Virus record (IMG/VR): IMGVR_UViG_3300032323_000590
Coordinates: 1 to 27,465 of that record
Length of the DNA stretch: 27,465 nucleotides
Strand: one strand, 5' to 3'
From: a virus
Below the pieces are notes generated by a model. It did no database searches. It had not been told where the DNA came from and was given only the letters and a program-made list of their open reading frames with translations. The position numbers and the translations under genes were made by a program. Positions 1,487-17,429 of the stretch are shown here, piece after piece. Within the stretch, counting starts at the first letter, position 1; each line of letters opens with the position of its first letter.

Positions 1487-1972
1487 ATGCAACAGAATGA
1501 TAGGTTTTTCAATGCTTATGTTGATTTGGCAGTAGGAACTATTCACCAGAATGTAAACACAATACTTGAACTAAAAACTCAGGTTAAGATGCTCGAAGAC
1601 CAAGTTCGTGAACTAGATTCGGCAGTTGGTGTGATGAATCAGAGGATTGAAAATTTCGATAAAGAAAAAGATAGTCTGATCAAACAGTTTGAAGAAGACA
1701 CTAAGAATCTCACCTCACAGTATGATCGGAAATTGTCTGATCTACAAAGTAAGTTAAAATCTCTAGAACGTGAGAAAGAATCCACTCTGAAAAAGAGTGG
1801 TCACATGTCTACTTTTGAGAATCAGATTAAGAACATGAAAAGAGAAATCTTAGAAAAGAATGCTGAGATTGAAAGTTTGAAATCTAACACCAGCAATACA
1901 GGTGTAACTTCTGTTATAAATACTAAAACGAAGAAATCATCGTCTAAACCAGAAAATGTAGATGACTTTTAA
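1487..1972 (+). CDS. Coiled-coil protein between the fibre genes (161 aa)
   Basis: Residues about 15-135 are strongly charged and heptad-like, with many Glu/Lys/Leu/Ile (for example LKTQVKMLEDQVRELDS and LQSKLKSLEREKE). This predicts a long parallel coiled coil. The last 30 residues are Ser/Thr/Lys-rich and end in VDDF. A good AGGAG site lies upstream of the ATG. The stop overlaps the start of the 1452-aa fibre by one base (TAATG), which suggests translational coupling. No family is recognised. It could be a trimerisation or connector rod in the fibre, or an assembly chaperone. No enzymatic motif, signal peptide or membrane segment is visible. Confidence 0.6.
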   Translation: MQQNDRFFNAYVDLAVGTIHQNVNTILELKTQVKMLEDQVRELDSAVGVMNQRIENFDKEKDSLIKQFEEDTKNLTSQYDRKLSDLQSKLKSLEREKESTLKKSGHMSTFENQIKNMKREILEKNAEIESLKSNTSNTGVTSVINTKTKKSSSKPENVDDF

Positions 1973-4900
1973 TGCCTAATACAGTAATCAAGTTAAAACG
2001 ATCAGGAACTGTCTCTAACGCACCAGTAGCATTAGAGTTTGGTGAGCTTGCGATCAACTACGCAGATGGCTATCTTTATTACAAAGCCGCGAACGGTACT
2101 GTAGTAAGATTCGCCAGTGGTGGCGGTGACTCATTTGGTACTGTCAATGCTAACGGTACATTAGTTGTAGCAGATGCCCCTGCTGATATTCTTACACTTG
2201 TTACTGGCAATAATATCACCATTACGGGTGATGCGGTTAATGATAGAGTGACTATTGGTCTGACAAACTCTATCAACATAAATGGTACAGCAACATTCAC
2301 TGGTCCTTTTACAATCAATAATGGAAGTGGTGCTGGCGGTAGTGATGAAGGCGGCGAGATACAATTAGCAAATGCGGTATCTAACTCTTCTCTATCTGGT
2401 CCGATAGCGATTGACATTTATCAGAATAAACTAAGATTCTTTGAAGTAAACTTACCAAACAGAGGTGCGTTCATCAATCTTGCATCTGCTGCTGTTGGTG
2501 TAGGTACTGATCTTCTTGCAGGCGGCGGTGAAACTACAGATACTGTTGCAAGAAATGCCGCCGGCGCCGCTTTTGATAAAGCCAATGCAGCACTTGCAAA
2601 TACTAATGGTGCAACTTTTGCGGGTTCTCTGACAGTATCAACAAATCTAACTGCTGATAAAGTCATTTCAACAAACAATGGTCAAGGTGAAAACTTTCAA
2701 GTTGGTGATGATGCATGGATTGGTGATACTAACGTTGCCGATACAGTCAGAATCAAAGGTCAGCAAAACTCAGCAAATGCTTTCATTGCGTTTGGTAATA
2801 ATGACGGTGTTCTGCTTGGTCGTGCTGGATCAGGAAATCTTACTTATGGTGGCAATACTGTATGGCACTCTGGTATTGATGGTGCTGGTTCTGGTCTTGA
2901 TGCAGACTTATTAGACGGTCAGCAAGGAACATATTATGCAACGGCCACAGATTCAACCGCTGCTTTTGAAAGAGCAAACGTTGCTGTCGCTAACGTCAAC
3001 TATGTCAATACTGCTATGCAAGCGGCCTTTACTAGAGCCAATACAGGAATTTCTAACACCGAAAACGTTGTTTTTGCTGGCAACAATTTCTTCTTTACAA
3101 GCAATATTAAGTTTGTTGGTTCTGCTACAAGAATCACTTATACTTCTGATTCGGTCTATATCACGAACGGCGCTCAAACTAATAAACCCGCATTGCAGCT
3201 TGAGACTGGTGCTGGTACTGGCGGCATAGTAGTAGGTCGTGGTAGTGCTAGTGCAAGTTTTGGTCACGATTCAGGAAGTCAAACTTATATTGGTTCAACT
3301 AACTGGGGTGGTCTTGCTTTTACTACAGCCGGAAATTTAAATCATCAAGCCAACAATGGTATGTTTAGATTTACTGGAGATAGCAACTCTTATGCTGCTT
3401 CTAACGGTGTTATTCAGGTCGTAGCTGCTTCGTCCGTTGGTTTCTATGTCAGATTTACTAAAGATGCTCTGACAAGTACATCTAATCTCAGACTAAACGA
3501 TGTATTCACAGTAAGCTACTCTGGTAATGTCAACACACTTGGTAGCATAGAGTCTACTGGTCTAAAAGTTATTGGTTCTGCTAACATAACGTCAAATCTT
3601 TTAGTTCTGGGTGTTGACGTACTGAATACTCTAAGCGGTGCTAACACTGCTGTTGGTGCTGGAGCCAACGCTTTTGCATCTGCAACTATAGCTGGCGCTA
3701 ACACTGCTGTTGGTACTGGTGCTAATGCATATGCAGTAACAATCGGCACAGCATCAAACACATATCTACTAACAACTCTTGCTGGCGCAAACACAGCCGT
3801 AGGTGCAGGCGCCAATGCGTTTGCTACTGCCGCTGCCGCTGGTGCTAACGCCTTTATGATCTCGGTGCAAAATGGATCTAATACCGCTATTGGTACTGGT
3901 GCCAATGCATTCACTTCTGCAACTATAGCTGGTGCTAACACTGCTGTTGGTACTGGCGCTAACACCTATCTATTGACAACTCTTGCAGGATCTAATACAG
4001 CCGTTGGTACTGGCGCAAATGCCTTTATGATCTCAGTACAAAACGGATCTAATACTGCTGTTGGTTTAGGTGCCAATAACTACGCAAACTCTACTTTTGT
4101 AAGACTAACTGCCGCAAGTCAGACGATTACTGGTGACGTAACAATTGTCGGTAACCTAAATTTTAGTGGAAATACTTCATTTTCTAATGTGCAATCGATC
4201 ATTGTTAATGACCCACTGATTTATCTTGCTGGTAATAACGCATCTGACATTGTAGATATAGGTTTTTTTGGTAATTACGTAAACGCAACTGGTGCTAATG
4301 TTCACACAGGTCTTTATCGTGAACACGTAGATAAGATGTATTATCTGTTCCAAGGTTATGACAAGCTACCAGATAACAATCATATAGGCGCTCTGTCTAA
4401 CAATATGACATTGGCTGTTCTTAATGCCGACTTGAGAACAAGCAATCTGTCTCTTGGCGGCGCGAATGCTATCACATGGATCACTGCATCTTTCGCTAAG
4501 GCAAATACATTTGATAACGTCTATACGACTATAGCAGGTGCGAACGCAGCCGTAGGAACCGGTGCCAACACATATCTACTAGCAACACTCGCAGGTGCGA
4601 ACGCAGCCGTAGGAACCGGTGCCAACACATATCTACTAGCAACGCTTGCTGGTGCTAATACAGCCGTAGGAACTGGTGCTAACTCATTTGCCACTGCTGC
4701 GACAGCAGGTGCTAACGCCTTTATGATCTCAGTGCAAAACGGATCTAATACTGCGGTTGGTGCTGGCGCTAATACATATCTGCTGACAACTCTTGCTGGT
4801 GCTAATACAGCCGTTGGTGCTGGCGCTAATGCGTTTGCCACCGCTGCTGCTGCTGGCGCTAACGCCTTTATGATCTCAGTGCAAAATGGATCTAACACTG

Positions 4901-6330
4901 CCGTTGGTACTGGTGCCAATACAGTAGGATCAGCCGCTTTTGCCAAGGCTAATGCTGCTTTAGCCAATACAACTGGTACTTTCAATGGTGCGCTGACTGT
5001 TGCTAATGACTTTGCAGCGAGAAACGCGAACTATACATTCACTTTACCAAATGTTCTCGCAACAGCTTCTTGGATCAAGTTAGGTACTTTTACAGCATCT
5101 CAAGACGGTCGTCACATATTCATTAAAGTTGTGACTTCTCATGGCTACAACGCCACGACAACTCAACAAGGTGAAGTTTACATTCACTTTAAAACCAGCA
5201 ATGGTGTTTCAGTTGATGCTAATGGATTTGCTGGCGAAGCAACTTTTTATATAACCAACTCAACTACAGATTATGATGTTAAAGTTGTATCAAACGCCGC
5301 GGGTGTTTCTGCTACATCTTTTGATATCTATTTCTATCAATCTGGTTCATATAATGGTGCCGGTAGCTTCTATACTGTAGAACTCGGTGATCAATATAAC
5401 TGCACATGGACAAATTCTTCAACTACATCTGCTGATCCAGGTGCGGCATCTTCTTCAATTACTGTAGGCACACAGAGATTCATAGTTCAATCTAACGTTG
5501 GTATCGGAACAACGTCTCCAACTTCAAAATTGCACGTTGTTGGTGCTGCTAATATTACCACATCATTAATTGTTGCTGGTGCCGATATACTCACAACAAT
5601 TGCGGGTGCCAATGTCGCAGTGGGCGCTGGTGCCAATACAGTAGGCTCAGCAGCATTCATACAAGCCAATGCGGCAGTTATTAGTGCTAACTTAGACTCA
5701 GTAAACGCAACAAGATTTATGGTCTTTGAAGACGCCGTGACAGGAACTTTTAACAGAGCCAATGTTTCGCACGGCATAACTTATAATCCATCTTCGAATA
5801 CTCTTAATACAGGCAATCTTGTCGTTACAGGTAACGTGGGTCTTGGTAGAGCAAATCCTGGATTTAGACTCGATGTTGTTGGTACGATCAATGCGTCTAG
5901 TATATTAGTAAATGGTGCTGCCATAGGTGGTGCTACTCTATTCACCGATAACGTTAGCGCGACTCGCTTCGTGACATTTTCAAGCAGTAACACAGGTACA
6001 TTCTCGCAAGCTAACGTTGCATCATCACTGACTTTTAATCCGTCAACAGGTACTCTATCAGCCACTATATTCAACGCAACATCTGATGCTAATTCAAAGC
6101 AAAATATCAAAACCATAGAAAACGGATTGAATATTATAAATAGTCTCAGAGGTGTCAGCTTCGACTGGAAAGACACAGGTAAACCTTCTTATGGGCTGAT
6201 AGCGCAAGAAGTGGAAGAACATCTACCTGCTCTAGTCTATACAGACGAAAACGGAAAAAAATCTCTAAACTATGATGCTATAATTGGTTTCTTAGTAGAA
6301 GCTATAAAAGAGTTAAAGAAAAATGGTTGA
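1972..6330 (+). CDS. Large tail fibre with C-terminal S74 intramolecular chaperone (1452 aa)
   Basis: This is the largest gene in the window. The N-terminus (MPNTVIKLKRSGT, then ALEFGELAINYADG) matches the fibre at 245 in style. Long beta-rich stalk segments follow, then two blocks of AGANTAVGTGAN-type repeats (nt about 3640-4080 and 4534-4950) flanking the shared 152-aa module (nt 4084-4539). Further on are a lectin-like non-repetitive stretch (nt about 5000-5480) and a VGIGTTSPTSKLHV segment often found before chaperone domains. Residues 1371-1452 form a peptidase S74 / endosialidase-type intramolecular chaperone, starting SDANSKQNI and containing GLIAQEVEEHLP. In this family the domain trimerises the fibre and cuts itself off just after the Ser of the SD pair. 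Ser1371 and Lys1376 are present. It is probably a receptor-binding long fibre. Confidence 0.85.
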   Translation: MPNTVIKLKRSGTVSNAPVALEFGELAINYADGYLYYKAANGTVVRFASGGGDSFGTVNANGTLVVADAPADILTLVTGNNITITGDAVNDRVTIGLTNSININGTATFTGPFTINNGSGAGGSDEGGEIQLANAVSNSSLSGPIAIDIYQNKLRFFEVNLPNRGAFINLASAAVGVGTDLLAGGGETTDTVARNAAGAAFDKANAALANTNGATFAGSLTVSTNLTADKVISTNNGQGENFQVGDDAWIGDTNVADTVRIKGQQNSANAFIAFGNNDGVLLGRAGSGNLTYGGNTVWHSGIDGAGSGLDADLLDGQQGTYYATATDSTAAFERANVAVANVNYVNTAMQAAFTRANTGISNTENVVFAGNNFFFTSNIKFVGSATRITYTSDSVYITNGAQTNKPALQLETGAGTGGIVVGRGSASASFGHDSGSQTYIGSTNWGGLAFTTAGNLNHQANNGMFRFTGDSNSYAASNGVIQVVAASSVGFYVRFTKDALTSTSNLRLNDVFTVSYSGNVNTLGSIESTGLKVIGSANITSNLLVLGVDVLNTLSGANTAVGAGANAFASATIAGANTAVGTGANAYAVTIGTASNTYLLTTLAGANTAVGAGANAFATAAAAGANAFMISVQNGSNTAIGTGANAFTSATIAGANTAVGTGANTYLLTTLAGSNTAVGTGANAFMISVQNGSNTAVGLGANNYANSTFVRLTAASQTITGDVTIVGNLNFSGNTSFSNVQSIIVNDPLIYLAGNNASDIVDIGFFGNYVNATGANVHTGLYREHVDKMYYLFQGYDKLPDNNHIGALSNNMTLAVLNADLRTSNLSLGGANAITWITASFAKANTFDNVYTTIAGANAAVGTGANTYLLATLAGANAAVGTGANTYLLATLAGANTAVGTGANSFATAATAGANAFMISVQNGSNTAVGAGANTYLLTTLAGANTAVGAGANAFATAAAAGANAFMISVQNGSNTAVGTGANTVGSAAFAKANAALANTTGTFNGALTVANDFAARNANYTFTLPNVLATASWIKLGTFTASQDGRHIFIKVVTSHGYNATTTQQGEVYIHFKTSNGVSVDANGFAGEATFYITNSTTDYDVKVVSNAAGVSATSFDIYFYQSGSYNGAGSFYTVELGDQYNCTWTNSSTTSADPGAASSSITVGTQRFIVQSNVGIGTTSPTSKLHVVGAANITTSLIVAGADILTTIAGANVAVGAGANTVGSAAFIQANAAVISANLDSVNATRFMVFEDAVTGTFNRANVSHGITYNPSSNTLNTGNLVVTGNVGLGRANPGFRLDVVGTINASSILVNGAAIGGATLFTDNVSATRFVTFSSSNTGTFSQANVASSLTFNPSTGTLSATIFNATSDANSKQNIKTIENGLNIINSLRGVSFDWKDTGKPSYGLIAQEVEEHLPALVYTDENGKKSLNYDAIIGFLVEAIKELKKNG
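3640..4080 (+). repeat. Degenerate AGANTAVGTGAN-type repeat block 1 of the large fibre
   Basis: This is a run of in-frame imperfect units built on GANTAVG(T/A)GAN, with interspersed TYLLTTLAG and AFMISVQNGSN elements. The AFMISVQNGSN element occurs twice here, twice in the second block, and once in the 401-aa fibre. At the DNA level synonymous bases vary, so most units are old; compare the near-perfect tandem copy at 4534. Confidence 0.8.
4084..4539 (+). repeat. 152-codon fibre module, copy 2
   Basis: This is the second copy of the module at 569-1024, inside the 1452-aa fibre. It is in the same reading frame and has the same length. Sequence on both sides is of the AGANTAVGTGAN repeat type, so homologous recombination could exchange the module between the two genes. 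Confidence 0.85.
4534..4647 (+). repeat. Near-perfect 57-bp tandem duplication in the large fibre
   Basis: Bases 4534-4590 and 4591-4647 are adjacent copies of one 57-bp unit. They differ at two positions, both near the 3' end, and the first 53 bases are identical. Each unit encodes 19 residues, AGANAAVGTGANTYLLATL. The surrounding repeat units differ at many synonymous positions, so this duplication looks recent. Gain or loss of one unit keeps the reading frame and would change stalk length. The wider repeat block continues to about 4950. Confidence 0.9.
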
Positions 6331-7492
6331 CTTCGTATTTAGAGCAAACAATACTCCTTTTGAAAGTCTATACGTAACTTGGGAAGAGCTTGGATTCAAC
6401 GCAGATGATTTCAGAGGCGGCGGTTTGTGGTCATGGGGCGTAGCAAGCTACGGTCGATTAGGTCATGGTGACACTACCGTCAGATCATCACCTGTTCAAG
6501 TAGGTGCATTGACAAACTGGACTCAAGCTAGTGCAGGGTTTGAACATTCAGCGGCAGTAAGATTAGATGGAACTTTATGGACATGGGGTGATAATCGTGA
6601 CGGTCAACTAGGTTTAAACGATACAACCAATAGAAACTCACCAGTTCAAGTGGGAACAGGTACAAGTTGGAGAAATGTTGCTGCTGGACGCCGAATTACT
6701 TTTGCAATTACTCGTAATGGTAGTTTGTGGTCATGGGGTCTTAATAGTTTTGGCCAATTAGGTTTAAATGACAGAACTAATAGATCAAGTCCAGTTCAAA
6801 TTGGAACACTGACAAATTGGAAACAAGTTTCTTGTACTTTATATAATATATCGGCTATTAGATCAGATGGTACACTATGGGCTTGGGGTAGAAATGATCT
6901 TGGTCAATTAGGTCTTGGTGATATCGTACATAGATCATCGCCAGTTCAGGTAGGATCATTGACCAATTGGAGTCAAGTTTTTGCAGGACAAGCACATACA
7001 CTAGCTGTCAAAACCGATGGATCGCTGTGGTCATGGGGTGATAATTCTAACAGTCAATTAGGCGGAGGAGCCACACGCTCATCACCAGTTCAGGTTGGTT
7101 CACTGACCAACTGGAAACAAGTTTCTAGTGCCGCCGGGACGGGTGCAACATTGGCTGTTAAGACAGATGGCACACTATGGTCGTGGGGTAGAAACAATAT
7201 TGGCGAGTTTGGCACAGGTGAAAGCGGATTATCCGTTCGGAATTCTCCAGTACAAGTTGGCACTCTCACTAATTGGAAACAAATAGGGACAGGAAAAGGT
7301 GCTACTGGCGCTCATTCTGTATTTGCCATCAAAACAGACGGCACTCTATGGGCGTGGGGTACCAATGCCATATTTGGTCAATTAGGTCTTGGTGATACAA
7401 CGCCCAGATCATCGCCAGTTCAAGTAGGATCATTAACCAATTGGAAACAAGTTGATGCATGGGATCATGCTTTAGCTTTAACAAGAATATAA
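6323..7492 (+). CDS. RCC1-repeat seven-bladed propeller protein 1 (389 aa)
   Basis: After a unique leader of about 33 residues (MVDFVFRANNTPFESLYVTW...) the protein consists of seven RCC1-type repeats. The consensus is LWxWGxNxxGQLGLGD, RSSPVQVGSLTNW, QVSxGxxHxLAVKTDGT, about 48-53 residues each. RCC1 repeats fold as a seven-bladed beta-propeller. Finding exactly seven, with strand-like segments at both ends, fits a closed ring. The gene overlaps the end of the S74 fibre by 8 bases and precedes a DUF4376-like fibre-assembly gene. A virion adhesin or host-binding tip is therefore more likely than a Ran GTPase exchange factor. It has two paralogues, at 8164 and 11236. Repeat 5 is shorter, reading SQLGGGATRSSP. 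There is no signal peptide. Confidence 0.8.
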   Translation: MVDFVFRANNTPFESLYVTWEELGFNADDFRGGGLWSWGVASYGRLGHGDTTVRSSPVQVGALTNWTQASAGFEHSAAVRLDGTLWTWGDNRDGQLGLNDTTNRNSPVQVGTGTSWRNVAAGRRITFAITRNGSLWSWGLNSFGQLGLNDRTNRSSPVQIGTLTNWKQVSCTLYNISAIRSDGTLWAWGRNDLGQLGLGDIVHRSSPVQVGSLTNWSQVFAGQAHTLAVKTDGSLWSWGDNSNSQLGGGATRSSPVQVGSLTNWKQVSSAAGTGATLAVKTDGTLWSWGRNNIGEFGTGESGLSVRNSPVQVGTLTNWKQIGTGKGATGAHSVFAIKTDGTLWAWGTNAIFGQLGLGDTTPRSSPVQVGSLTNWKQVDAWDHALALTRI

Positions 7493-7508
7493 GAGGTTTT
7501 AAGATAAT

Positions 7509-8162
7509 ATGTACGCACTCATTCATAACAATCAAATTCAAGTAGGTCCTCGTCAGTGGAATTATGCTTTCTTTAAAGACTATCTTGATGAAGAAGGTCT
7601 GAACGCAGATGCCTTGACGACAAGACCTCCAGAAGATAACAAGATTATTACAGATCAATGGAAGATCATCCCTGTGATTGATATTCAGTATGCCCAGCTT
7701 GACGAGCCATTTGAGCAGCCAGCAGGTCCATATTGGACAATTAACGATGAGTATATCACTGGTGAATATCTTGCTGTGCCAAACACAGTCGGTATGGTTC
7801 AAGGCAAACTGAAAGAGAAAGTCACAAATAATCGTTATAGAGTCGAGATCGGTGGTTGTCCATTTACTTTTTCTGATGGTACTGAGGTAACTCTATACAC
7901 AACTAGAGAAGATCGCAACGTTTACCTACAGGCATATCAAATTATGGCCGATGATGGTTCAATTGTATTTAAGTTTCCTAACGCTGTATTCAAGAGCGTC
8001 AATAAGACTGAGCTAGGTCAGATTGTTGCAGCAGGTTCGGCTCACATTCAAGAAGCATTCACATGGGAATCTGGTAAGTATGCAGAAATCGATGCTTGCA
8101 CAACTCTTGAAGAACTTAAGTTGATCGACACGAAGCATCCATCACAAGTATCTGAGGAATAA
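7509..8162 (+). CDS. DUF4376-like tail-fibre assembly/accessory protein (217 aa)
   Basis: The N-terminal part (MYALIHNNQIQVGPRQWN, residues 1-90) has the short-strand, YxxI-rich style of phage fibre accessory proteins. Residues about 110-210 (YRVEIGG, FSDGTEVTLYTTREDR, ELGQIVAAGSAHIQEAFTWE, TTLEEL) fit the DUF4376 pattern. That domain is common in fibre-assembly or fibre-tip proteins of tailed phages. The gene sits between two RCC1 propeller genes, 16 bases after one and one base before the next, so a role in assembling or attaching the propellers is a natural inference. Family assignment is by eye and the biochemical role is unknown. There is no membrane segment. Confidence 0.6.
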   Translation: MYALIHNNQIQVGPRQWNYAFFKDYLDEEGLNADALTTRPPEDNKIITDQWKIIPVIDIQYAQLDEPFEQPAGPYWTINDEYITGEYLAVPNTVGMVQGKLKEKVTNNRYRVEIGGCPFTFSDGTEVTLYTTREDRNVYLQAYQIMADDGSIVFKFPNAVFKSVNKTELGQIVAAGSAHIQEAFTWESGKYAEIDACTTLEELKLIDTKHPSQVSEE

Positions 8163-8163
8163 A

Positions 8164-9315
8164 ATGCCTGCAAGTATTACTAGGTTTACTGAAGAAGATA
8201 TTGATCTTGCAGATAAGTATCTCGCCAAAGCTGATGCTTCATTGATACCTGCAAAAGGACTGTGGTCGTGGGGATTAAATAATGACGGTGGACTAGGTCA
8301 TAATGACAGAACTAATAGATCATCGCCAGTTCAAGTGGGGTCTCTAACTAATTGGAGCCAAGTTGATGCCGCCGTCAGTAATTCTGCTGCAATAAAATCT
8401 GATGGTACTTTATGGACTTGGGGTAACAATACACATGGACAGTTAGGTCTTGGTGACAGAACTAATAGATCATCGCCAGTTCAAGTGGGGTCTCTAACTA
8501 ATTGGAGACAGGTTTCTACTAGTCTTCATACATTAGCATTAACAACTAATGGAGGATTATGGGCATGGGGTAGAAACAACTATGGTCAACTAGGTCTTAA
8601 TGACCTCGTACATAGATCGTCACCAGTTCAGGTAGGATCACTGACTAATTGGAGTCAAATTTCTTGTACTTATCATTCATTAGCTGTTAAAACAGATGGT
8701 ACTTTGTGGGCATGGGGTAGAAACAACTATGGTCAACTAGGTCTTAATGACAGAACTAATAGATCATCGCCAGTTCAAGTGGGTACATTAACCAATTGGA
8801 GTCAAATTTCAGCAGGATTAGGACATTCATTGGCTGTTAAAACAGACGGTACTTTGTGGGCATGGGGCTATAACCGTTCAGACACACGTCAATTAGGTCT
8901 TCTTGATGCCATACACAGATCATCACCAGTTCAAGTGGGGTCTCTAACTAATTGGAGACAAGTTGCTGCTGGTGGTACGTCTAATTCATTAGGATTTTCA
9001 TTAGCTGTTAAAACTGATGGTACATTATGGGCTTGGGGTACTAACAGCTTTGGCAGTTTAGGTCTTGGTGATATCACACCTAGATCATCTCCAATTCAAG
9101 TTGGAGCACTTACTAATTGGAGTCAAGTTTCTGCTCGAAGTAGAGTTTCATTTGCTGTTAAAACTGATGGTACATTATGGGGTTGGGGTTATAACGACAT
9201 TGGTAACTTAGGTCTAAATGATAGAACACGCAGATCGTCACCAGTTCAAGTAGGATCACTGACTGGGTGGAGACAAGTTTCTGCTTCTTTCCTAACATTA
9301 GCTTTATTTAAGTGA
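8164..9315 (+). CDS. RCC1-repeat seven-bladed propeller protein 2 (383 aa)
   Basis: This is a paralogue of the proteins at 6323 and 11236. Its different leader (MPASITRFTEEDIDLADKYL, residues 1-32) looks helical and may be an attachment peptide. Seven RCC1-type repeats follow, starting GLWSWGLNNDGG and ending in LTLALFK. Repeat 5 carries a short insertion (YNRSDTRQLGLLD, then AAGGTSNSLGF). Several repeats are nearly identical at DNA level: 8304-8357 and 8454-8507 are a perfect 54-bp copy, and 8560-8604 recurs at 8707-8751. This indicates recent exchange between blades. It follows the DUF4376-like gene directly. I infer a virion adhesin with variable loops; no enzyme motif is present. Confidence 0.8.
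   Translation: MPASITRFTEEDIDLADKYLAKADASLIPAKGLWSWGLNNDGGLGHNDRTNRSSPVQVGSLTNWSQVDAAVSNSAAIKSDGTLWTWGNNTHGQLGLGDRTNRSSPVQVGSLTNWRQVSTSLHTLALTTNGGLWAWGRNNYGQLGLNDLVHRSSPVQVGSLTNWSQISCTYHSLAVKTDGTLWAWGRNNYGQLGLNDRTNRSSPVQVGTLTNWSQISAGLGHSLAVKTDGTLWAWGYNRSDTRQLGLLDAIHRSSPVQVGSLTNWRQVAAGGTSNSLGFSLAVKTDGTLWAWGTNSFGSLGLGDITPRSSPIQVGALTNWSQVSARSRVSFAVKTDGTLWGWGYNDIGNLGLNDRTRRSSPVQVGSLTGWRQVSASFLTLALFK
8304..8507 (+). repeat. Exact 54-bp repeat within propeller 2
   Basis: Bases 8304-8357 and 8454-8507 are identical, 150 bases apart, which is one RCC1 blade. They encode the RTNRSSPVQVGSLTNW part of blades 1 and 2. A second exact repeat, 45 bp, lies at 8560-8604 and 8707-8751. Identity at synonymous sites shows recent conversion or duplication, not selection on protein alone. 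Confidence 0.85.
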
Positions 9316-9349
9316 CATAAGTAATACTATATCATGAAAGGTCTACATT

Positions 9350-9901
9350 ATGAATATAAACATTGGTGCTGGTTACAAGCGTTTTCCTGGTTTCATCAAC
9401 ATCGACTCGGATAAAAACTGTAACCCAGATCATCTAGTCAATCTTGAGACAGAAAAACTTCCTCTTGAAGACAACTCTGTAGAAAAAGTCATCGCACATC
9501 ACATTCTTGAGCATCTTGGAGAAGGTTACTTTCATCTTCTCCAAGAACTCTATCGCGTATGTAAGCATGGTGCAATCATCGATATTCGTGTTCCGCATCC
9601 TAATCACGAAGTCTTTCTCAACGATCCTACTCACAAGCGACCTGTCACAGTAGATGGTCTCAGACTATTCTCTAAGCAGTTTAACAAACTTGAAATTGCA
9701 CGTAATGGCTCATGCTCAACGTTAGGTCTCATGTATGATGTAGACTTTGAAATTATTAACTATCAATACATTCATGATGGTTTTTATGATGACATCACGA
9801 AAACAATGACAAGACCTCAACTAGAAAGACTGTTTCGCGAAGCCTTAAATACAACAATTGAGATTCATATTCAGCTTATGGTGGTGAAAGATGCCGTTTG
9901 A
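9350..9901 (+). CDS. SAM-dependent methyltransferase (class I, 183 aa)
   Basis: The N-terminus MNINIGAGYKRFPGFINIDSD carries a minimal glycine-rich SAM loop (residues 3-8) followed by the acidic residue at the end of strand 2 (Asp19). LPLEDNSVEKVIAHHILEHL (38-57) is the motif-IV/V region of the Methyltransf_11 type, and RVCKHGAIIDIRVPHP (68-83) is the strand after it. At 183 residues it is short, lacking a separate substrate domain. Similar small methyltransferases are common in surface-polysaccharide clusters and in T4-like phage fibre regions. It overlaps the next glycosyltransferase-like gene by 11 bases, so the two are probably made together. The substrate is unknown; a sugar or a protein side chain is possible. 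There is no DNA-methylase NPPY motif. Confidence 0.75.
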   Translation: MNINIGAGYKRFPGFINIDSDKNCNPDHLVNLETEKLPLEDNSVEKVIAHHILEHLGEGYFHLLQELYRVCKHGAIIDIRVPHPNHEVFLNDPTHKRPVTVDGLRLFSKQFNKLEIARNGSCSTLGLMYDVDFEIINYQYIHDGFYDDITKTMTRPQLERLFREALNTTIEIHIQLMVVKDAV

Positions 9902-11246
9902 TATCAACTCTTCTGTTCTTATGAAAACTGTTTTTACTTGCAAGTCATCGGGTAAACTTGATGATGCGAAGAACTTTCTTGATATTGCAGCAAAGTATAG
10001 TTTTGAAGTCTCAACCCTTGATGAGATTGCATACCTACAGAACGAAGTAAAAGACTATGCAAATAGTATTGCAACTCTGAGAAAGTGCCTAGCTCTGTCT
10101 CAGAATCCACAAGAACATTATTCTATTCGTGCCAATCTTGCCAAGATGTATAACCATCTTAACGAACCGATGCTCAGTCTCGGTTACTCAAATGCTAATT
10201 TTGAGACCTCACAGGGTCAAGACTATGACACGCTGATGGAGATTGCATTCTCACATTATCTATACGGTGACTATGAAAAGTCTGAGAGCATAATGCGTGA
10301 ACTGAATACTGTTGAAGGGTTACCTGATCATGTCAAAGGTCGTATTTTATATAATCTTGGAAGCTATGACATCGAAAAAGGTTTATTCAAGCGCGGTCTG
10401 AGTGGCTTCATTCATATTGGTCATAAGATCGGTATATGGACACATCGTGAAAAATCAATGATACCTATGTGGGACGGTTCAAAGCAAGAAGGCAAGACAC
10501 TGCTCATTCATGCTGAAGGTGGTATCGGTGATGAAATCATCTGTATTCGTTTCATGAAGCATATTGAGCGCATGGGTATGAATCCTGTATGGTATACAAA
10601 CAACCAATCTCTAGTAGAAGTATTCAATAATAATGGCTTCAAGTGTATTTCTGATTTTAATGAAGTTGATTTATCCGATGCCGTACAGTGTATGGCAATG
10701 TATCTGCCCTTACTTCTTGATGTGGATAAAGATCAGCTATGGGAAGGTCCATATCTGAAAGTCAATGAAAAGTATCTTGATAAGTGGCGAAAAATTCTAC
10801 CAGAAGGACCTAAGCTCGCTTGCAAGTGGACAGGCAATCCACATTACGAGCAAGACTTACACAGAAGCTTGCCTATTGATTTCATAAACAATCTTGAGTT
10901 TTCAGGTACTAAGATCAATCTGCAACTAGAACCTGAGAACGACCAACCAAATATGTTCAATGCGGGAAGTATGATAAATAGTATTGAAGATACGCTCGCA
11001 ATTCTAAAGCTGTGTGATTATACGGTGACGAGTTGCACTAGCATTGCCCATATGTTAGGTGCCTTAGATGTTAAGGGTTCAGTTTGCCCGCCTATCGCAA
11101 CATACTATGTGTGGTTGGGCATGAATGAAAATAAGTCGAACTGGTATGGTGAGAATCTAAAAGTATTCAGACAGAAGAAGCATAGAGATTGGTCATGTGT
11201 TTTTGATGAAGTTCAAAAAACAATAAGAGAGAACAATGCCAAGTAA
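9891..11246 (+). CDS. TPR domain plus GT-B (GT9-like) glycosyltransferase (451 aa)
   Basis: The first half (about residues 1-190) is helical with TPR-like helix pairs (AKNFLDIAAKYSFEVSTLDE, then ANLAKMYNHLNEPMLSLGYS). The second half starts at about 203 with LLIHAEGGIGDEIICIRFM, the Gly-rich loop typical of TPR-linked glycosyltransferase family 9-like proteins, whose GT9 members include LPS heptosyltransferases. WTGNPHYEQDLHRSLP (about 306-321) and a C-terminal DYTVTSCTSIAHMLGAL (about 374-390) match the sugar-nucleotide binding region of that fold. The window also encodes HldE- and HldD-like enzymes, so ADP-heptose is a plausible donor. This is inference from context. The gene overlaps its neighbours by 11 bases on each side. 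Confidence 0.7.
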   Translation: MPFDINSSVLMKTVFTCKSSGKLDDAKNFLDIAAKYSFEVSTLDEIAYLQNEVKDYANSIATLRKCLALSQNPQEHYSIRANLAKMYNHLNEPMLSLGYSNANFETSQGQDYDTLMEIAFSHYLYGDYEKSESIMRELNTVEGLPDHVKGRILYNLGSYDIEKGLFKRGLSGFIHIGHKIGIWTHREKSMIPMWDGSKQEGKTLLIHAEGGIGDEIICIRFMKHIERMGMNPVWYTNNQSLVEVFNNNGFKCISDFNEVDLSDAVQCMAMYLPLLLDVDKDQLWEGPYLKVNEKYLDKWRKILPEGPKLACKWTGNPHYEQDLHRSLPIDFINNLEFSGTKINLQLEPENDQPNMFNAGSMINSIEDTLAILKLCDYTVTSCTSIAHMLGALDVKGSVCPPIATYYVWLGMNENKSNWYGENLKVFRQKKHRDWSCVFDEVQKTIRENNAK

Positions 11247-12372
11247 TTTTACGGTTGCTGGAAATGACACAGATAACATCTTTCTGCTGAGAACAGAAAC
11301 AGACGAAGATAATGGCCCATATTGGGGTATATGGACTGCGGGTAATAATGGTAACGGCCAATTAGGTCAAGGCGATATAGTACATAGATCATCACCAGTT
11401 CAGGTAGGTTCACTAAATTGGGCTAGAGTTGCGACCGGACGCCGACATACATTAGCTATCAGTCCAGAAGGTTCACTATGGGGTTGGGGATATAATAGTT
11501 TCGGTGTATTAGGCTTAGGTAATACCGTTCATAGATCATCACCAGTTCAAATTGGATCTTTAACTAATTGGAGTCAAGTTTCAGCTGGAGGATCTTCCTT
11601 TGCTATCGGAACAAATGGAACATTATGGGCATGGGGAATAAACAATAGCGGTGAATTAGGTATAGGTGTTTTAGGATCCGTATCATCACCAGTTCAAGTA
11701 GGTACACTAACTAACTGGAGTCAAGTTTCTTCTGGACTAGACCATACAATAGCGGTCAGAACAGACGGTACACTATGGTCATGGGGAAGAAATCAATATG
11801 GTCAATTAGGTCTTGGTGATACAACTGGCAGATCATCGCCAGTTCAGGTAGGATCATTGACCAATTGGAGTCAAGTTGGACAAGGTTTAGCATCATTTTC
11901 TATAGCAGTCAAAACAGATGGCACACTGTGGTCATGGGGCAGAAACACTGAAGGTCAATTAGGTCTTGGTGATATCGTTCACAGATCATCACCAGTTCAA
12001 ATTGGAACACTTACTAATTGGAGTAGAGTGGCACGAGGTTATAGGCATTGTCTTTCTGTTAAAACAGACGGCACTCTGTGGGCGTGGGGTAATGATGGTA
12101 GCGGTCAATTAGGTCAAGGTACTCCTACCAACAGATCATCACCTGTTCAGATTGGATCTTTAACTAACTGGAGTCAAGTTGCAGCCGGAGACTCTTCAAT
12201 GTCTGTTAAAACAGATGGAACATTGTGGGGTTGGGGATCTAATAATTACGGATCTTTAGGCCTTGGTAATACAACTTCCAGATCATCACCAGTTCAAATA
12301 GGAACAGCTACTAATTGGAGTCAAGTTTCTTTCAGTCGATATCATTTTGCAGCTATCAGAAGAATACGATAA
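11236..12372 (+). CDS. RCC1-repeat seven-bladed propeller protein 3 (378 aa)
   Basis: This is the third paralogue. The leader (MPSNFTVAGNDTDNIFLL, residues 1-35) differs from those of the other two. Seven RCC1-type repeats follow, from GIWTAGNNGNGQLGQGD to the last blade ending FAAIRRIR. The first blade lacks the usual WG pair (WTAG), and its linker is two residues shorter (SLNWARV instead of SLTNWxQV). A 48-bp stretch (11830-11877) is identical to one in propeller 1 (6932-6979), nearly 5 kb away. The gene overlaps the glycosyltransferase by 11 bases. Its place between modification enzymes suggests a link between these adhesins and glycan chemistry: either they bind the host glycan, or the enzymes decorate them. 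Confidence 0.8.
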   Translation: MPSNFTVAGNDTDNIFLLRTETDEDNGPYWGIWTAGNNGNGQLGQGDIVHRSSPVQVGSLNWARVATGRRHTLAISPEGSLWGWGYNSFGVLGLGNTVHRSSPVQIGSLTNWSQVSAGGSSFAIGTNGTLWAWGINNSGELGIGVLGSVSSPVQVGTLTNWSQVSSGLDHTIAVRTDGTLWSWGRNQYGQLGLGDTTGRSSPVQVGSLTNWSQVGQGLASFSIAVKTDGTLWSWGRNTEGQLGLGDIVHRSSPVQIGTLTNWSRVARGYRHCLSVKTDGTLWAWGNDGSGQLGQGTPTNRSSPVQIGSLTNWSQVAAGDSSMSVKTDGTLWGWGSNNYGSLGLGNTTSRSSPVQIGTATNWSQVSFSRYHFAAIRRIR

Positions 12373-12375
12373 ATA
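12368..12375 (+). promoter_or_regulatory. Probable T4-type late promoter GATAAATA
   Basis: GATAAATA overlaps the stop of propeller 3, 30 bases before the sulfotransferase ATG. It matches the NATAAATA late motif. It would drive the sulfotransferase and epimerase genes late in infection. Confidence 0.45.
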
Positions 12376-12405: not shown

Positions 12406-13161
12406 ATGCAAAAACAACTACACTTTCTCTCAGGTCTACAGAGGTCGGGATCAACTGTTCTAACTAAGATGCTGAACCAGCATCCCGACATCTTTGCCTC
12501 TTCTACATCACCTTTCATCGACTATCTTATTCCTGCCGTCGAACAACTCTATAACATTCAACAGAACCATTCATCTGGTCATTATGTGAATGTTCAGAGA
12601 ATCTTATCGACAGCAGCGTTTGCTTTCTACGATACAAACAAGACGCATATCATCGACAAGAATCGCGGATGGTTGACCAACTACGAAAACATCGATAGAG
12701 AGCTACAACAGAACCCAAAGATCATTCTAACACTCAGACCAATTGAAGAAGTCGTTGCATCGTTCTATAAGATTCTGGTTGTGAAGAATGAACTACAACA
12801 AACACCAGAAACTATCTACGAGGGTTTCATCAAAGACCTATTTGGTGAAATGATGAAGAAGGCATATCTGAAAGATAAACTCTGTATCGTGACTTATAAA
12901 GAAATTGTACAAGACGCAGAGAACACAATGAAGCGCGTCGAGAACTTTATTGAAGCCGAACATCATAACTATGACTTCAATAACATCAGAGATGATGATC
13001 CTGAGAACGATGAGAAGTGGGGTATTCCAGGTCTACATGATATCAGACCTACAATCAGTGTGACTTCTATACCACCTTCTGATATCATGACAAAGAGTGA
13101 GCTTTCATTCTGTAAGCAACTGACACAGACGCTCTACAAAGCATATGGTGTGAAGGAGTAA
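12406..13161 (+). CDS. PAPS-dependent sulfotransferase (251 aa)
   Basis: This enzyme moves a sulfuryl group from PAPS to a hydroxyl or amine acceptor. Residues 7-20 (FLSGLQRSGSTVLT) form the 5'-phosphosulfate-binding loop, with Arg13, Ser14 and Gly15 in place. ILTLRPIEEVVASFYK (107-122) is the 3'-phosphate-binding region, with Arg111 and Ser119. IIDKNRGWL (82-90) is also typical of bacterial and phage members. The length suits a soluble single-domain enzyme, with no membrane anchor. No strong Shine-Dalgarno is visible. It precedes the epimerase by two bases. An APS-kinase-like gene, able to supply PAPS, lies on the opposite strand about 0.8 kb away. The acceptor is unknown; a glycan on the host or on the virion is the natural guess. 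Confidence 0.8.
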   Translation: MQKQLHFLSGLQRSGSTVLTKMLNQHPDIFASSTSPFIDYLIPAVEQLYNIQQNHSSGHYVNVQRILSTAAFAFYDTNKTHIIDKNRGWLTNYENIDRELQQNPKIILTLRPIEEVVASFYKILVVKNELQQTPETIYEGFIKDLFGEMMKKAYLKDKLCIVTYKEIVQDAENTMKRVENFIEAEHHNYDFNNIRDDDPENDEKWGIPGLHDIRPTISVTSIPPSDIMTKSELSFCKQLTQTLYKAYGVKE

Positions 13162-13163
13162 TT

Positions 13164-13961
13164 ATGATTCTGGTTACTGGACACAAAGGCTTCATCGGCA
13201 GAAATCTTGCTAATCATCTTGAACAAAGAAACAACAAAGTCTACGGTCTAGATCGTAAAGACGGAGATGTGTTTGAACAATTGAATGACGTGCCTTGGAA
13301 AGATATTACTGAAATCTATCATCAAGGTGCCATTTCAAGCACAACAGAACAAAACGTTGACGCGATCTACAAACACAACATCAAGTTCAGCATTGATCTT
13401 TTTGAGAAAGCTATTGAGCATGAGATTATTGTTAAGTATGCATCTTCAGGTTCAGTATATGGCAACTCAAAAGACTATTCATACAACCCTCTAAACTACT
13501 ATGCCATGTCTAAGTTGACAGTCGATATGTGGGTCAAGCAGAACAAGCGCCGTTTCAAAAAGAACATTACAGGCTTTCGCTATTTTAATGTCTACGGCAA
13601 AGATGAAATGAAAGACGATCTTAGCACAAGCCCAATCTATCGCTTCAGCGAGCAAGCGAAGAGTACGGGCATCATCAAGATTTTCAAGGGATCGGATAAG
13701 ACGTTTCGTGACTTTATATGCGTAGAAGATATCATCAGCATTATCACTGACGATCACGCATTTGGTATATTTGATTTGGGCACAGGAACTCCTGTTAGCT
13801 TTCTTGAAGTCGCAGAACTCGTTTCAGAGAAGTACGACGCAGCCGTCAAGTTTATCCCTATGCCCGATATTGTAAAGGGAAAGTATCAGTTTTACACAAA
13901 GGCAAAAGATGAATACAATCACCATTTCATTTCAGTTAAAGATTGGTTAGCTAAGACCTAA
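13164..13961 (+). CDS. hldD: ADP-L-glycero-D-manno-heptose 6-epimerase-like (HldD-like SDR, 265 aa)
   Basis: This is an extended short-chain dehydrogenase. TGHKGFIG (5-12) is the NAD(P)-binding loop. The catalytic set is Ser94/95 (YASSGSVYG) with Tyr113 and Lys117 (YYAMSK). Specific resemblance to HldD/RfaD comes from HQGAISSTTEQN (53-64), FRYFNVYG (138-145), KTFRDFICVEDI, FDLGTGTPVSF and MPDIVKGKYQFYTKA, each with a close counterpart in the E. coli enzyme. HldD converts ADP-D-glycero- to ADP-L-glycero-manno-heptose. At 265 residues it is shorter than the roughly 310 of E. coli. Its 3' end overlaps the convergent APS-kinase gene by 15 bases. The HldE-like gene on the other strand would make its substrate. 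Confidence 0.8.
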   Translation: MILVTGHKGFIGRNLANHLEQRNNKVYGLDRKDGDVFEQLNDVPWKDITEIYHQGAISSTTEQNVDAIYKHNIKFSIDLFEKAIEHEIIVKYASSGSVYGNSKDYSYNPLNYYAMSKLTVDMWVKQNKRRFKKNITGFRYFNVYGKDEMKDDLSTSPIYRFSEQAKSTGIIKIFKGSDKTFRDFICVEDIISIITDDHAFGIFDLGTGTPVSFLEVAELVSEKYDAAVKFIPMPDIVKGKYQFYTKAKDEYNHHFISVKDWLAKT

Positions 13962-14747
13962 TTCTTTTCTGATTTTAGTTGCTGATATATTGTGAGTTGC
14001 ATCATCGAAGACTTCTTGTTCGATCTTGTAGCCCACATCTCTACCGTAAGTAATATTGACGATGTTAGGTACGACCATAATCGTATACTGCCCGTAGTAT
14101 TTGGGACCTAAAGCTTTATGAATCCTATCGATAACATCGTCAACATCAAATGGGTTGCTATCGTTCCAACCCTGACAGTCGCGAATCATAATGCAGACTT
14201 GACCAGTCTTGTCTAGCGCACGATTGAACAGAGCCATATGACCATCATGCCAAGGCTGCCAGCGACCTAGCATCTGCACTGTAGGCTTTCGAAAATCAAA
14301 TTGACTGGGCTTCTTCTTATTCAGAATGTCGCTCGCTATTCGCTGCGCCCATCCCTTAGCATCAAAATTAGTTATGCGATAGTCATACTTTGTCGGTGGC
14401 TCGAATATCTTATTTGTATCTTCATATCTACCCTTCTTGATAGTATCAAGCCAAATGATATAATCAGGTTCACCATTGCACGAAAAGACTTCTCGCATTT
14501 TTTGTGTTGGGCAGATAAACTCGCAGATAGATGTGACATTATTCTTCTTGTCCAACTTAGCTAGATCAGCCATGCGTTGAGCTTGTCTTAGTCTGCCGGA
14601 TTCGCTGAAGTCCCAATCTTCAAATAGCTTGCGAACATTATCAGCATTATGCCAGTTAATCTGTATCTTATCAAGTAAGATACTACTCAGTTCTTGAGCT
14701 AATGTTGTCTTACCAGAACCAGGTAGACCCATAATCAAAATCTTCAT
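13947..14747 (-). CDS. APS-kinase-like domain fused to HxGH nucleotidyltransferase (266 aa)
   Basis: The N-terminal domain (1-145) has a P-loop GLPGSGKT (7-14), followed by NADNVRKLFEDWDFSES and RLRQAQRMADLA. These align with the GDNVR...LGFS and RxxEVA regions of adenylylsulfate kinase (CysC), which makes PAPS. CEFICPTQKMREVF and the RYEDTNKIFEPP region also fit. The C-terminal domain (about 157-266) is a nucleotidyltransferase with GRWQPWHDGH (161-170) and ISATKIR (254-260), which are the two hallmarks of the cytidylyltransferase/NMNAT superfamily. ATG at 14747 is chosen over an upstream TTG because it forms a TGATG junction with the preceding gene. The C-terminal substrate is unknown; an ATP-sulfurylase-like activity is possible but its RNPxHxxH motif is not seen. 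It is the last gene of the minus-strand operon. Confidence 0.7.
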   Translation of the reverse strand: MKILIMGLPGSGKTTLAQELSSILLDKIQINWHNADNVRKLFEDWDFSESGRLRQAQRMADLAKLDKKNNVTSICEFICPTQKMREVFSCNGEPDYIIWLDTIKKGRYEDTNKIFEPPTKYDYRITNFDAKGWAQRIASDILNKKKPSQFDFRKPTVQMLGRWQPWHDGHMALFNRALDKTGQVCIMIRDCQGWNDSNPFDVDDVIDRIHKALGPKYYGQYTIMVVPNIVNITYGRDVGYKIEQEVFDDATHNISATKIRKELGLS

Positions 14748-15556
14748 CAACCAATCTCCTCTGTAATCTTTTGTCTTAATTCTACTGGCACGATCTCCGC
14801 CATAGACATTCTTCTGAGTGTTACTTCAACTTCTCGTTTCTTATTTGGTTCTCTTGAGCATTTTACATAGTCACATCCAGTCTTGATGAAGTTTTCCATA
14901 TCTTGTTCACGAAAGTAATGATTGACCAGAAACCATAATGTCCAATCATTAGTAGGATTGATCTCATATTCTTCCGTAAGCATCTTCAAGTAGAGTTCCG
15001 GTCTTGCCTTCTTCTTAAAGTCTTGATCGTGTATCAGATAGATATCGTCATTATATATTTCAACCTCTGATCGATCTTTATGTATCCATGATAGATGTTC
15101 GTAGATAGGCTGTGACCAGGTATAGTCATGTCGTCTATGTATCTTGTTTGTGCCGAGTGTCTTTGGTGGTCCTACACGAACAACATTCGAGTACAGGTCG
15201 AGACGATCACACGAGATGTTAGTCACATTAGGATTCCGTCCAATAGTCTTAATCATCTCATCAAGCACATTGATAGAGAAGTACTCATCTAGATCAGGCG
15301 ACAGCGCCCATTCTACATCATCTGGTACCATAGACAAGTTATATTTTCTAGCTACATCAAACTTCCATGGTGTAAACGTCTTCTGTTCTATAATAAGATT
15401 AGGGTCAGACTTGGTTGCTTCTTGAAATAGTTCGTATGTTCCGTCTGTTGAGCCGGTATCAAGAACAACCCGATAGTCAAACTTCTCGGTATAGAACAGC
15501 CACTTTTCTACAAACTGTTTTTCATTCTTACAGATAGTATATGCCGCAGTTTTCAT
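14747..15556 (-). CDS. Family 2-like glycosyltransferase (GT-A fold, 269 aa)
   Basis: The start MKTAAYTICKNEKQFVEKWL is the typical first strand and helix of GT2-type enzymes. VVLDTGSTDGTYELF (31-45) binds the nucleotide. ALSPDLDEYF (84-93) sits where the DxD metal site is expected, here as DLDE. The C-terminal half is helical and poorly conserved. No membrane segment is present, so it is a soluble transferase. The start overlaps the HAD gene by 4 bases (ATGA). In the operon it probably adds a sugar to a surface glycan or protein; donor and acceptor cannot be read from sequence. Confidence 0.75.
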   Translation of the reverse strand: MKTAAYTICKNEKQFVEKWLFYTEKFDYRVVLDTGSTDGTYELFQEATKSDPNLIIEQKTFTPWKFDVARKYNLSMVPDDVEWALSPDLDEYFSINVLDEMIKTIGRNPNVTNISCDRLDLYSNVVRVGPPKTLGTNKIHRRHDYTWSQPIYEHLSWIHKDRSEVEIYNDDIYLIHDQDFKKKARPELYLKMLTEEYEINPTNDWTLWFLVNHYFREQDMENFIKTGCDYVKCSREPNKKREVEVTLRRMSMAEIVPVELRQKITEEIG

Positions 15557-15870
15557 TTCTGTGTTATCCTATTTACACCTCTAAAATATCTGAGACTGTT
15601 CATGGCCTTATCATCTATGAATAAATCGAAAGAAGGCTTACCAGTCTGTATGCTCGTAAACTTACAGCCCCAAGATTCAAGCTGCTTCACGGTAAACTCT
15701 TGTAAGTCTTTACCAGAATTATTACCTCTAGCGGTCCAATAGTGAACTTCGTGACCTTTTGAATATAGTTCGTTTAGATGCTGTATTCTGTCATGATATG
15801 GTTTGCTATTAGCGTAGTCGCTGTCTTTCGTTTCACATATCGTATTGTCTATATCAACATAATAAATCAT
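15553..15870 (-). CDS. Small HAD-superfamily phosphatase (105 aa)
   Basis: This is a compact HAD hydrolase. YVDIDNTIC (4-12) carries the nucleophile Asp6 and acid/base Asp8 of motif I. YWTARGN (44-50) is motif II, with Thr46. Lys78 (TGKPS) is motif III, and FIDDKA (84-89) is motif IV. No cap domain fits in 105 residues. Related small HAD proteins occur in capsule and LPS sugar clusters. It lies downstream of an HldE-like kinase/nucleotidyltransferase, and heptose synthesis needs a bisphosphate phosphatase (GmhB), so it may fill that role. GmhB is a longer HAD protein, so this is only a suggestion. It overlaps both neighbours by 4 bases. Confidence 0.7.
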   Translation of the reverse strand: MIYYVDIDNTICETKDSDYANSKPYHDRIQHLNELYSKGHEVHYWTARGNNSGKDLQEFTVKQLESWGCKFTSIQTGKPSFDLFIDDKAMNSLRYFRGVNRITQK

Positions 15871-16217
15871 TGCGAATCTCCTGGCATAACTCTGTAGTTA
15901 TCATTAGGGTCATCGTGAGTCGAAACTTCAACGATGCATGAGTCGTCTTCAAGAGCAATCAGTTGATGAGGCATAAGAGGCGGGTTGTGCCAGTTTTCTC
16001 CTGTGCAAAGCACTTGCTCGTGTACAGAGGCATCTTTTGTCTCAATCCACTTGACTATAAAAGAGCCGCGCTGAACATACCAAGTCTCGTCTTTGATAGC
16101 ATGAAAATGCATTGAGGAGCGATTATCCTCTTTATCAAAGATCATAAACTTACCACAGTAATTTGGCATATCGGCAAAGATTATCTCTCTGCCCCAGCCT
16201 TTCTCTATAACTTTCAT
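15867..16217 (-). CDS. Cupin-domain sugar-phosphate isomerase-like protein (116 aa)
   Basis: This is a single cupin barrel. MHFHAIKDETWYVQRG (36-51) is cupin motif 1 with metal ligands His37, His39 and Glu44. PPLMPHQLIAL (79-89) is motif 2 with His84. The start KVIEKGWGREIIFAD resembles the C-terminal cupin of mannose-6-phosphate isomerase / GDP-mannose pyrophosphorylase proteins and stand-alone cupins of nucleotide-sugar clusters. It may isomerise or epimerise a sugar phosphate, or simply bind one. It lies in the operon between the HldE-like enzyme and the HAD phosphatase, with 4-base ATGA overlaps on both sides. Specificity is unknown. If it replaces the missing heptose isomerase GmhA it would be an unusual substitution, as GmhA is not a cupin. 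Confidence 0.7.
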   Translation of the reverse strand: MKVIEKGWGREIIFADMPNYCGKFMIFDKEDNRSSMHFHAIKDETWYVQRGSFIVKWIETKDASVHEQVLCTGENWHNPPLMPHQLIALEDDSCIVEVSTHDDPNDNYRVMPGDSQ

Positions 16218-17365: not shown

Positions 17366-17371
17366 TTCAAA

Positions 17372-17375
17372 CTCC
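17372..17375 (-). promoter_or_regulatory. Ribosome-binding site of the HldE-like gene
   Basis: On the minus strand GGAG lies 6 bases before the ATG at 17365. It decides the start in favour of MKIGLLGDY over the upstream MFYIFIYF. Confidence 0.8.
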
Positions 17376-17383
17376 ACAAAGTA

Positions 17384-17391
17384 TATAAATA
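17384..17391 (+). promoter_or_regulatory. T4-type late promoter TATAAATA for the morphogenesis operon
   Basis: TATAAATA is the exact T4 late-promoter consensus (recognised in T4 by the gp55/gp33 sigma system). It lies 31 bases before the gp13 ATG, in the only intergenic space between the divergent sugar operon and the neck-terminase genes. Confidence 0.75.
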
Positions 17392-17400
17392 TATAGAACA

Positions 17401-17429
17401 ATTATAACAGAGAGTACCATTAATGTCAA
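17401..17429 (-). promoter_or_regulatory. Consensus sigma70 (early-type) promoter of the minus-strand operon
   Basis: Reading the minus strand: TTGACA at 17429-17424, a 17-base spacer, then TATAAT at 17406-17401. Both hexamers and the spacing are exact consensus. Transcription would start near 17394 and give a leader of about 30 bases to the HldE-like ATG. The -35 box covers the first codons of gp13 on the opposite strand. Such strong host-type promoters drive early genes in T4. Confidence 0.85.

Follow-up and report, generated by a model that had tools for sequence, protein, structure and literature searches.

Three RCC1 propeller proteins behind the tail fibre of a T4-like phage: candidate exchangeable adhesins with linked heptose and sulfate enzymes

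The IMG/VR virus record IMGVR_UViG_3300032323_000590 was analysed over positions 1 to 27,465, hereafter the window. This 27,465-base record is a fragment of a T4-like phage in which a long tail fibre gene is followed by three genes for RCC1 propeller proteins, here named R1, R2 and R3; neck, sheath stabiliser, terminase, sheath, tube and portal genes lie downstream. An earlier note on this DNA had described three seven-repeat RCC1 proteins interleaved with modification enzymes at 6323–12372. The genes are as described, and the neighbours are indeed an S74 fibre (PF13884), a DUF4376 protein (PF14301) and a methyltransferase (PF08241), but the linked set reaches further, to 12406–13161, 13164–13961 and a minus-strand set of donor-sugar and 3'-phosphoadenosine 5'-phosphosulfate (PAPS) genes at 13947–17401; that the enzymes form a linked module had been overlooked. 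The propeller genes and their immediate surroundings are listed below (values after family names are E-values; pLDDT, predicted local distance difference test; leader classes follow gene position, P1 before the DUF4376 gene, P2 just after it and P3 later).

1916–1922, plus strand: ATAAATA, T4-type late-promoter-like, upstream of the fibre gene (site scan)
1972–6330, plus strand: long tail fibre with C-terminal S74 intramolecular chaperone (PF13884, 3.1e-15; tail-fibre PHROGs)
6323–7492, plus strand: R1, 34-residue leader (class P1) and predicted seven-blade RCC1 propeller (PF00415; model pLDDT 88.9; RCC1 family in PDB, Z 45-50)
7509–8162, plus strand: DUF4376 protein, found between the first and second propeller genes across T4-like relatives (PF14301, 1.5e-9; alignment of 27; synteny)
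8164–9315, plus strand: R2, 32-residue leader (class P2) and predicted seven-blade RCC1 propeller (PF00415)
9350–9901, plus strand: S-adenosylmethionine-dependent methyltransferase-like protein, often in the same block (PF08241, 1.4e-6; synteny)
9891–11246, plus strand: TPR domain and GT-B domain with predicted GT9 heptosyltransferase fold (TPR profile, 2.8e-21; model pLDDT 92.9; GT9, Z 16-17)
11236–12372, plus strand: R3, 31-residue leader and predicted seven-blade RCC1 propeller, start overlapping the stop of the preceding gene (PF00415)
12369–12375, plus strand: ATAAATA, late-promoter-like, upstream of the sulfotransferase gene (site scan)
12406–13161, plus strand: sulfotransferase, whose homologue is the N-terminal domain of a fused enzyme in other phages (PF13469, 7.7e-14)

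The fibre gene shares its last 8 bases with the start of R1, and the gene for the TPR and glycosyltransferase protein (TPR-GT) overlaps the gene on each side by 11 bases. The total ATAAATA count in the window is not above chance; 4 of the 9 sites lie at most 60 bases upstream of a start (fibre, sulfotransferase, first neck gene and tail tube; P=3e-4), and these positions are consistent with late expression. The fibre gene and the gene adjacent to it (245–1450) both contain long arrays of Ala/Asn-rich 'GANTAVGTGANAF' repeats and share a stretch that is nearly identical (FSNVQSLIVNDPLIYLAGNN...), a likeness that suggests duplication or recombination between fibre genes.

PF00415 matched seven stretches in each of R1, R2 and R3 (E 1.3e-72, 4.8e-74 and 8.6e-79), values at which chance is no issue. 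A genome-wide profile search likewise found 21 RCC1 blades, all over the curated cut-off, in three open frames, so that the count of exactly seven repeats per protein given in the earlier note holds. The leaders do differ, as it had said, and are slightly shorter than its 32 to 36 residues, with 34, 32 and 31 residues ahead of the first LWxWG. The seventh repeat stops short of its own LWxWG strand in all three proteins, as expected if an N-terminal strand closes the ring. The fold prediction concerns R1, which was modelled with AlphaFold2 from an alignment of 35 sequences; R2 and R3 are 55-61% identical to it. The model (pLDDT 88.9, predicted template modelling score 0.85) has 28 strands grouped by four, with blade 7 completed by strand 33-39, and its structural matches are HERC2 RLD2 (Z 49.5), RCC1 (47), UVR8 (46) and BLIP-II (30). 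The predicted structure thus supports the closed seven-blade ring that had been proposed, with strand exchange between its ends. No Pfam match to the gp38 family (PF05268) was detected in R1-R3.

For comparison, 229 loci were drawn from public viral contigs and phage records; since they were chosen for resembling R1, R2 or the enzymes, the frequencies that follow are not unbiased. Seven blades were counted in 369 of 401 distinct complete RCC1 open reading frames (ORFs), most of the others having near 14 or 21. The layout fibre-RCC1-DUF4376-RCC1-RCC1 was seen in dozens of phages, and in T4-like phages the recurring order begins with fibre, RCC1, DUF4376, RCC1, a protein of ~165 residues (in some) and RCC1, after which sulfotransferase, methyltransferase and TPR-GT follow in variable sequence. 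Longer arrays also occur: three loci (L183-L185) have seven consecutive RCC1 genes and an eighth close by, in a stretch that lacks a linked enzyme, and the contig of one of them (L184) holds 83 blades; L041 has five tandem RCC1 genes, each after a similar N-terminal region of ~210-250 residues. The DUF4376 protein is variable in some close pairs (63% identical in L001/L231, where TPR-GT is 94% identical) and may therefore also have a part in recognition or docking.

Leaders follow gene position. In a leave-one-genome-out hidden Markov model (HMM) test, 75 of 82 leaders were placed in the correct class, among them those of R1 and R2 in the window; the R3 leader ties (P1 11.2 versus P3 11.1 bits). 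The proposal that the proteins are mounted at different places is thus borne out in part: the leaders are position-specific, but those of R1-R3 have a theme in common and that of R3 is inseparable from P1. In a non-T4-like group (L018-L082), leaders with an 'SGVWTLxxQxxAxAAGTWP' motif or an FN3-like domain also recur by gene position. Propellers do not follow position: between genomes they are 53.7% identical in the same slot and 53.4% in different slots, and paralogues within one genome are 61.8% identical. At the level of blades neither slot nor blade index is conserved, with almost no index orthology. Synonymous codons are common to blades within a genome at 0.595 versus 0.470 expected, and between genomes at 0.471 versus 0.439. 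On these codon comparisons, blades undergo concerted evolution inside each genome, a pattern that agrees with the way in which propellers generally arise, by amplification of single blades (PMC9218822).

Propeller heads also vary independently of leaders and neighbouring genes, which strongly supports the claim that they are interchangeable. In phages with the fused enzyme, pairs whose enzymes are 97-100% identical have leaders 83-85% identical and propellers 61-65% identical. One such comparison (L152 and L156) gives 99.6-100% identity over most genes of >6 kb, one RCC1 gene included, versus 76% identity in DNA for the second RCC1 gene. Between two T4-like loci (L211 and L213), the DUF4376 protein is 97% identical, the leaders 96 and 91%, and the propellers 71 and 69%. 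In swapped heads 37-65% of synonymous (framework) codons differ, versus 0-26% in most neighbours, indicating that diverged alleles were exchanged and not point-mutated. The most variable blade columns are 9, 11, 12, 22, 40 and 42-44, corresponding to loops 1 and 3 and their edges. Mismatch is 0.48 on the face of loops 1 and 3 versus 0.21 on the opposite, more conserved loops (p=0.008), the faces being assigned topologically from a four-stranded meander that places loops 1 and 3 on one side. The comparisons within the R1-R3 family show the arrangement that marks receptor-binding proteins, a variable binding part on a conserved attachment part.

The gene at 9891–11246 had been called a glycosyltransferase. 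Pfam sequence search at E<=1 assigned it to no glycosyltransferase family, so that a structure model was needed. Residues 196-451 of the model match 1psw and 3tov (Z 17.3, root-mean-square deviation 3.0-3.2, 233-238 residues aligned), and the call therefore stands on the predicted GT9 heptosyltransferase fold. TibC is matched as well (Z 16.3), and SPY and O-GlcNAc transferases (OGT) are among the top Foldseek matches. G211, G213 and D214 are invariant in 23-24 relatives and form an N-terminal G-x-G-D type motif, whose Asp we take to be the catalytic equivalent of WaaC Asp13. As there is no Pfam Glyco_transf_9 match, the protein is filed as GT9-like and not as a member of the family. The sulfotransferase scores 52.9 bits against PF13469 (curated cut-off 27). 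In other phages sulfotransferase and glycosyltransferase form one protein of ~590 residues (41 ORFs); the best PDB matches of the fused-family profile are protein-tyrosine sulfotransferases (2e-7), and aryl sulfotransferases also appear.

These enzymes are found beside propeller genes. An RCC1 gene lies at most two ORFs away in 71 of 74 new loci with the fused enzyme, which are close relatives of the query, and a search of phage records with TPR-GT returned five records, four of them with RCC1. Of 117 distinct loci, 47 have an APS (adenosine 5'-phosphosulfate) kinase close to the enzyme and 14 have HldE there. In some phages outside the T4-like group the genes follow the tight order RCC1, RCC1, fused enzyme, RCC1, RCC1, ORF, APS kinase, HldE, cupin, HldE, HldD. 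Fused sulfotransferase-glycosyltransferase genes, mostly beside RCC1 genes, were also seen in contigs binned as Halothiobacillus, Betaproteobacteria, Woesearchaeota, Phycisphaerales and Methylobacter (L240-L244), which are probably misbinned phage contigs. The window carries the following genes beyond the sulfotransferase.

13164–13961, plus strand: HldD-like ADP-heptose 6-epimerase (TIGR02197, 2.9e-57, below equivalog cut-off; PDB 1eq2, 2.5e-34)
13947–14750, minus strand: APS-kinase-like domain (PAPS supply) and nucleotidyltransferase-like domain (PF01583, 3.2e-12)
14747–15556, minus strand: GT2-like glycosyltransferase (phrog_13126, 1e-30; PF13704, 1.5e-5, below cut-off)
15553–15870, minus strand: small HAD-type phosphatase-like protein (TIGR01689, 1.1e-6, below cut-off; phrog_1238)
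15867–16217, minus strand: cupin protein with PHROG label 'cysteine dioxygenase' (PF07883, 3.8e-4, below cut-off; phrog_7851, 3.2e-33)
16214–17401, minus strand: HldE-like heptose kinase/adenylyltransferase (NF008454, 5.5e-86, and TIGR02199, 4.6e-52, both below equivalog cut-offs)

By their linkage across these loci, TPR-GT, the sulfotransferase and the ADP-heptose and PAPS genes are a linked module, which probably decorates proteins or sugars with heptose and sulfate. Several of the donor genes match below NCBIfam equivalog cut-offs, so that their exact substrates are presumptive. The protein at 13947–14750, with its fused domains and a GRWQPWHDGH motif in the nucleotidyltransferase part, has a compact PAPS-synthase-like layout. 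Two PHROG labels were set aside: the product of 15553–15870 ('phosphoheptose isomerase') is probably a HAD phosphatase, and that of 15867–16217 is a cupin. Apart from these genes, a 120-residue ORF at 20998–21360, between the small and large terminase genes, had no PHROG match. No Rfam matches or tRNAs were detected within the window, nor close DNA relatives of it in phage records by megablast. Its portal protein shares 56% identity with that of Pelagibacter phage Mosig and ~55% with those of marine cyanomyoviruses; of 14 long RCC1 contigs, 2 carry psbA.

Together, these results make it probable that R1-R3 are exchangeable virion-borne adhesins of a T4-like phage. The observation made in the earlier note is confirmed, and its interpretation is partly supported and extended. 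Receptor binding is consistent with the one-faced hypervariability and the place behind the fibre, and virion presence would follow by analogy, having been shown for RCC1 proteins of other phages. A closed seven-blade propeller would be displayed on a short leader that plugs into one given slot in the tail-fibre region, and the hypervariable face of loops 1 and 3 would be the likely receptor-binding surface. Recombination and blade duplication between genes and genomes would replace heads while leaders remain, so that the phage could alter recognition and keep its tail as built. The TPR-GT9 protein and the sulfotransferase, supplied by ADP-heptose and PAPS enzymes of the phage, would add heptose and sulfate to propellers or fibre. 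Leader docking, receptor binding and this decoration are the steps that we infer. As a whole, a dedicated phage system in which its own propellers or fibre are heptosylated and sulfated by a TPR-guided GT9 and a sulfotransferase of protein-tyrosine type, with heads exchanged between fixed docking slots, is put forward tentatively.

For the enzyme step it is conceivable, if somewhat doubtful, that heptose or sulfate is added to host-envelope glycans, as a superinfection block or for progeny release, and not to the propellers; such a role would be compatible with the adhesin part. GT9 enzymes classically build the lipopolysaccharide core, and a GT2-like gene and most of an ADP-heptose route are encoded in the window too. 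Against this, the glycosyltransferase bears a TPR domain, as do OGT and SPY, and TibC, which transfers heptose to protein, has the same GT9 fold; the enzyme genes lie inside the adhesin operon with overlaps, the sulfotransferase gene has a late-promoter-like site, and the linkage is specific to RCC1 genes. We consider it unlikely that the propellers are non-virion proteins, secreted or intracellular, such as BLIP-II-style proteins that inhibit enzymes or defence proteins of the host. The R1 model does match BLIP-II, an inhibitor that is RCC1-like, and arms-race inhibitors can be hypervariable, but position-specific leaders, a fibre-linked operon and the presence of phrog_4219 proteins in virions of Escherichia phage W70 speak against this.

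Virion RCC1 proteins have so far been given another role. Phage W70 has three RCC1 proteins of ~40 kDa (W70_237-239), all detected in virions by mass spectrometry, for which its authors suspect a function in genome packing (PMC11370258), and phAPEC6 has six RCC1-like proteins in its virions, read by the authors as DNA-organising (PMC7247149, Table 1). The RCC1-like protein gp1 of GAP32 is also present in virions (PMC5259590). Virion presence, the RCC1 name and these suggestions favour internal proteins that organise packaged DNA, a role that seems quite improbable for R1-R3: their genes follow and overlap the tail fibre gene, their variable positions cluster on one face, RCC1-like domains are part of tail-fibre proteins in PollyC and Littlefix, and hypervariable heads next to near-identical neighbours are not expected of a DNA-packing protein. 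Targeted mutagenesis of the heads by a diversity-generating retroelement, which variable positions rich in Y, S, N and G on fixed loop columns might suggest, was rejected as very improbable given that none of 14 long RCC1 phage contigs, which may be incomplete, had a reverse transcriptase and that the swapped heads are so divergent at synonymous framework codons.

Several points weigh against the adhesin proposal. The leader of R1 has low confidence in the model, and a leader HMM gave nothing significant against all non-RCC1 ORFs of the first loci; tblastn of leaders in phage records gave weak matches alone (E 1-8), to Erwinia jumbo-phage virion proteins, which were not used, so that the plug has not been seen with another head. 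The near-identical pairs are metagenome contigs, in which repetitive genes can be misassembled, and they come mostly from non-T4-like phages and are not independent. Virion proteomics was found neither for this phage nor for S-SRM01, a related phage considered below, and what has been guessed in print for RCC1 proteins of virions is DNA packing (PMC7247149, PMC11370258).

Many phage RCC1 proteins are annotated as chromosome-condensation factors, a label that the virion studies accepted at face value. Fixed plugs, exchanged heads and one variable face point to a recognition surface instead, which would make host-range determinants of a widespread aquatic phage group testable and offer a natural case of a repeat scaffold serving like an antibody framework. 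That enzymes for heptose and sulfate are linked to the propellers suggests one of two things, adhesins that the phage modifies or a novel masking of the host surface, and it names the compounds to seek. If the former is true, we know of no earlier phage adhesin system that is sulfated or heptosylated.

Among known phages, the isolate Synechococcus phage S-SRM01 (NC_070963, gp334-gp345) resembles the window, with fibre, RCC1, DUF4376-type, RCC1, TPR protein, RCC1 and sulfotransferase genes in the same order. It differs in that its propellers are 46% identical and the first has six blades; they are annotated merely 'regulator of chromosome condensation', and RCC1 goes without mention in the S-SRM01 paper. 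The marine virus AG-345-E08 (MH319737), an unannotated single-cell amplified contig, is also close: its order, in which no fibre was identified, is seven-blade RCC1, a 230-residue protein, seven-blade RCC1, two ORFs, TPR-GT, two ORFs, seven-blade RCC1 and sulfotransferase. Full-text literature searches, whose coverage mostly excludes subscription journals, turned up no paper that describes slot-specific leaders, the exchange of heads or the enzyme linkage. As with the gp38 adhesin tip of T-even phages, a small adhesin gene of exchangeable specificity would stand directly after the long fibre gene; unlike R1-R3, gp38 belongs to an unrelated family and occurs once per phage. TibC-type protein heptosyltransferases have the GT9-like fold of TPR-GT; TibC takes ADP-heptose as donor, modifies autotransporter adhesins and is without a TPR domain. 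The RCC1-like domain of PollyC and Littlefix is alike in fold, but is fused to the fibre, in single copy and without slots. The 'DNA condensation proteins' of phAPEC6, 121Q and GAP32 are RCC1-like, as are R1-R3, and multi-copy in phAPEC6 and 121Q, but belong to jumbo phages and are remote in sequence. The precedents from W70, phAPEC6 and GAP32 concern presence in the virion and not an outer location, and the W70 proteins belong to phrog_4219, which R1-R3 also match.

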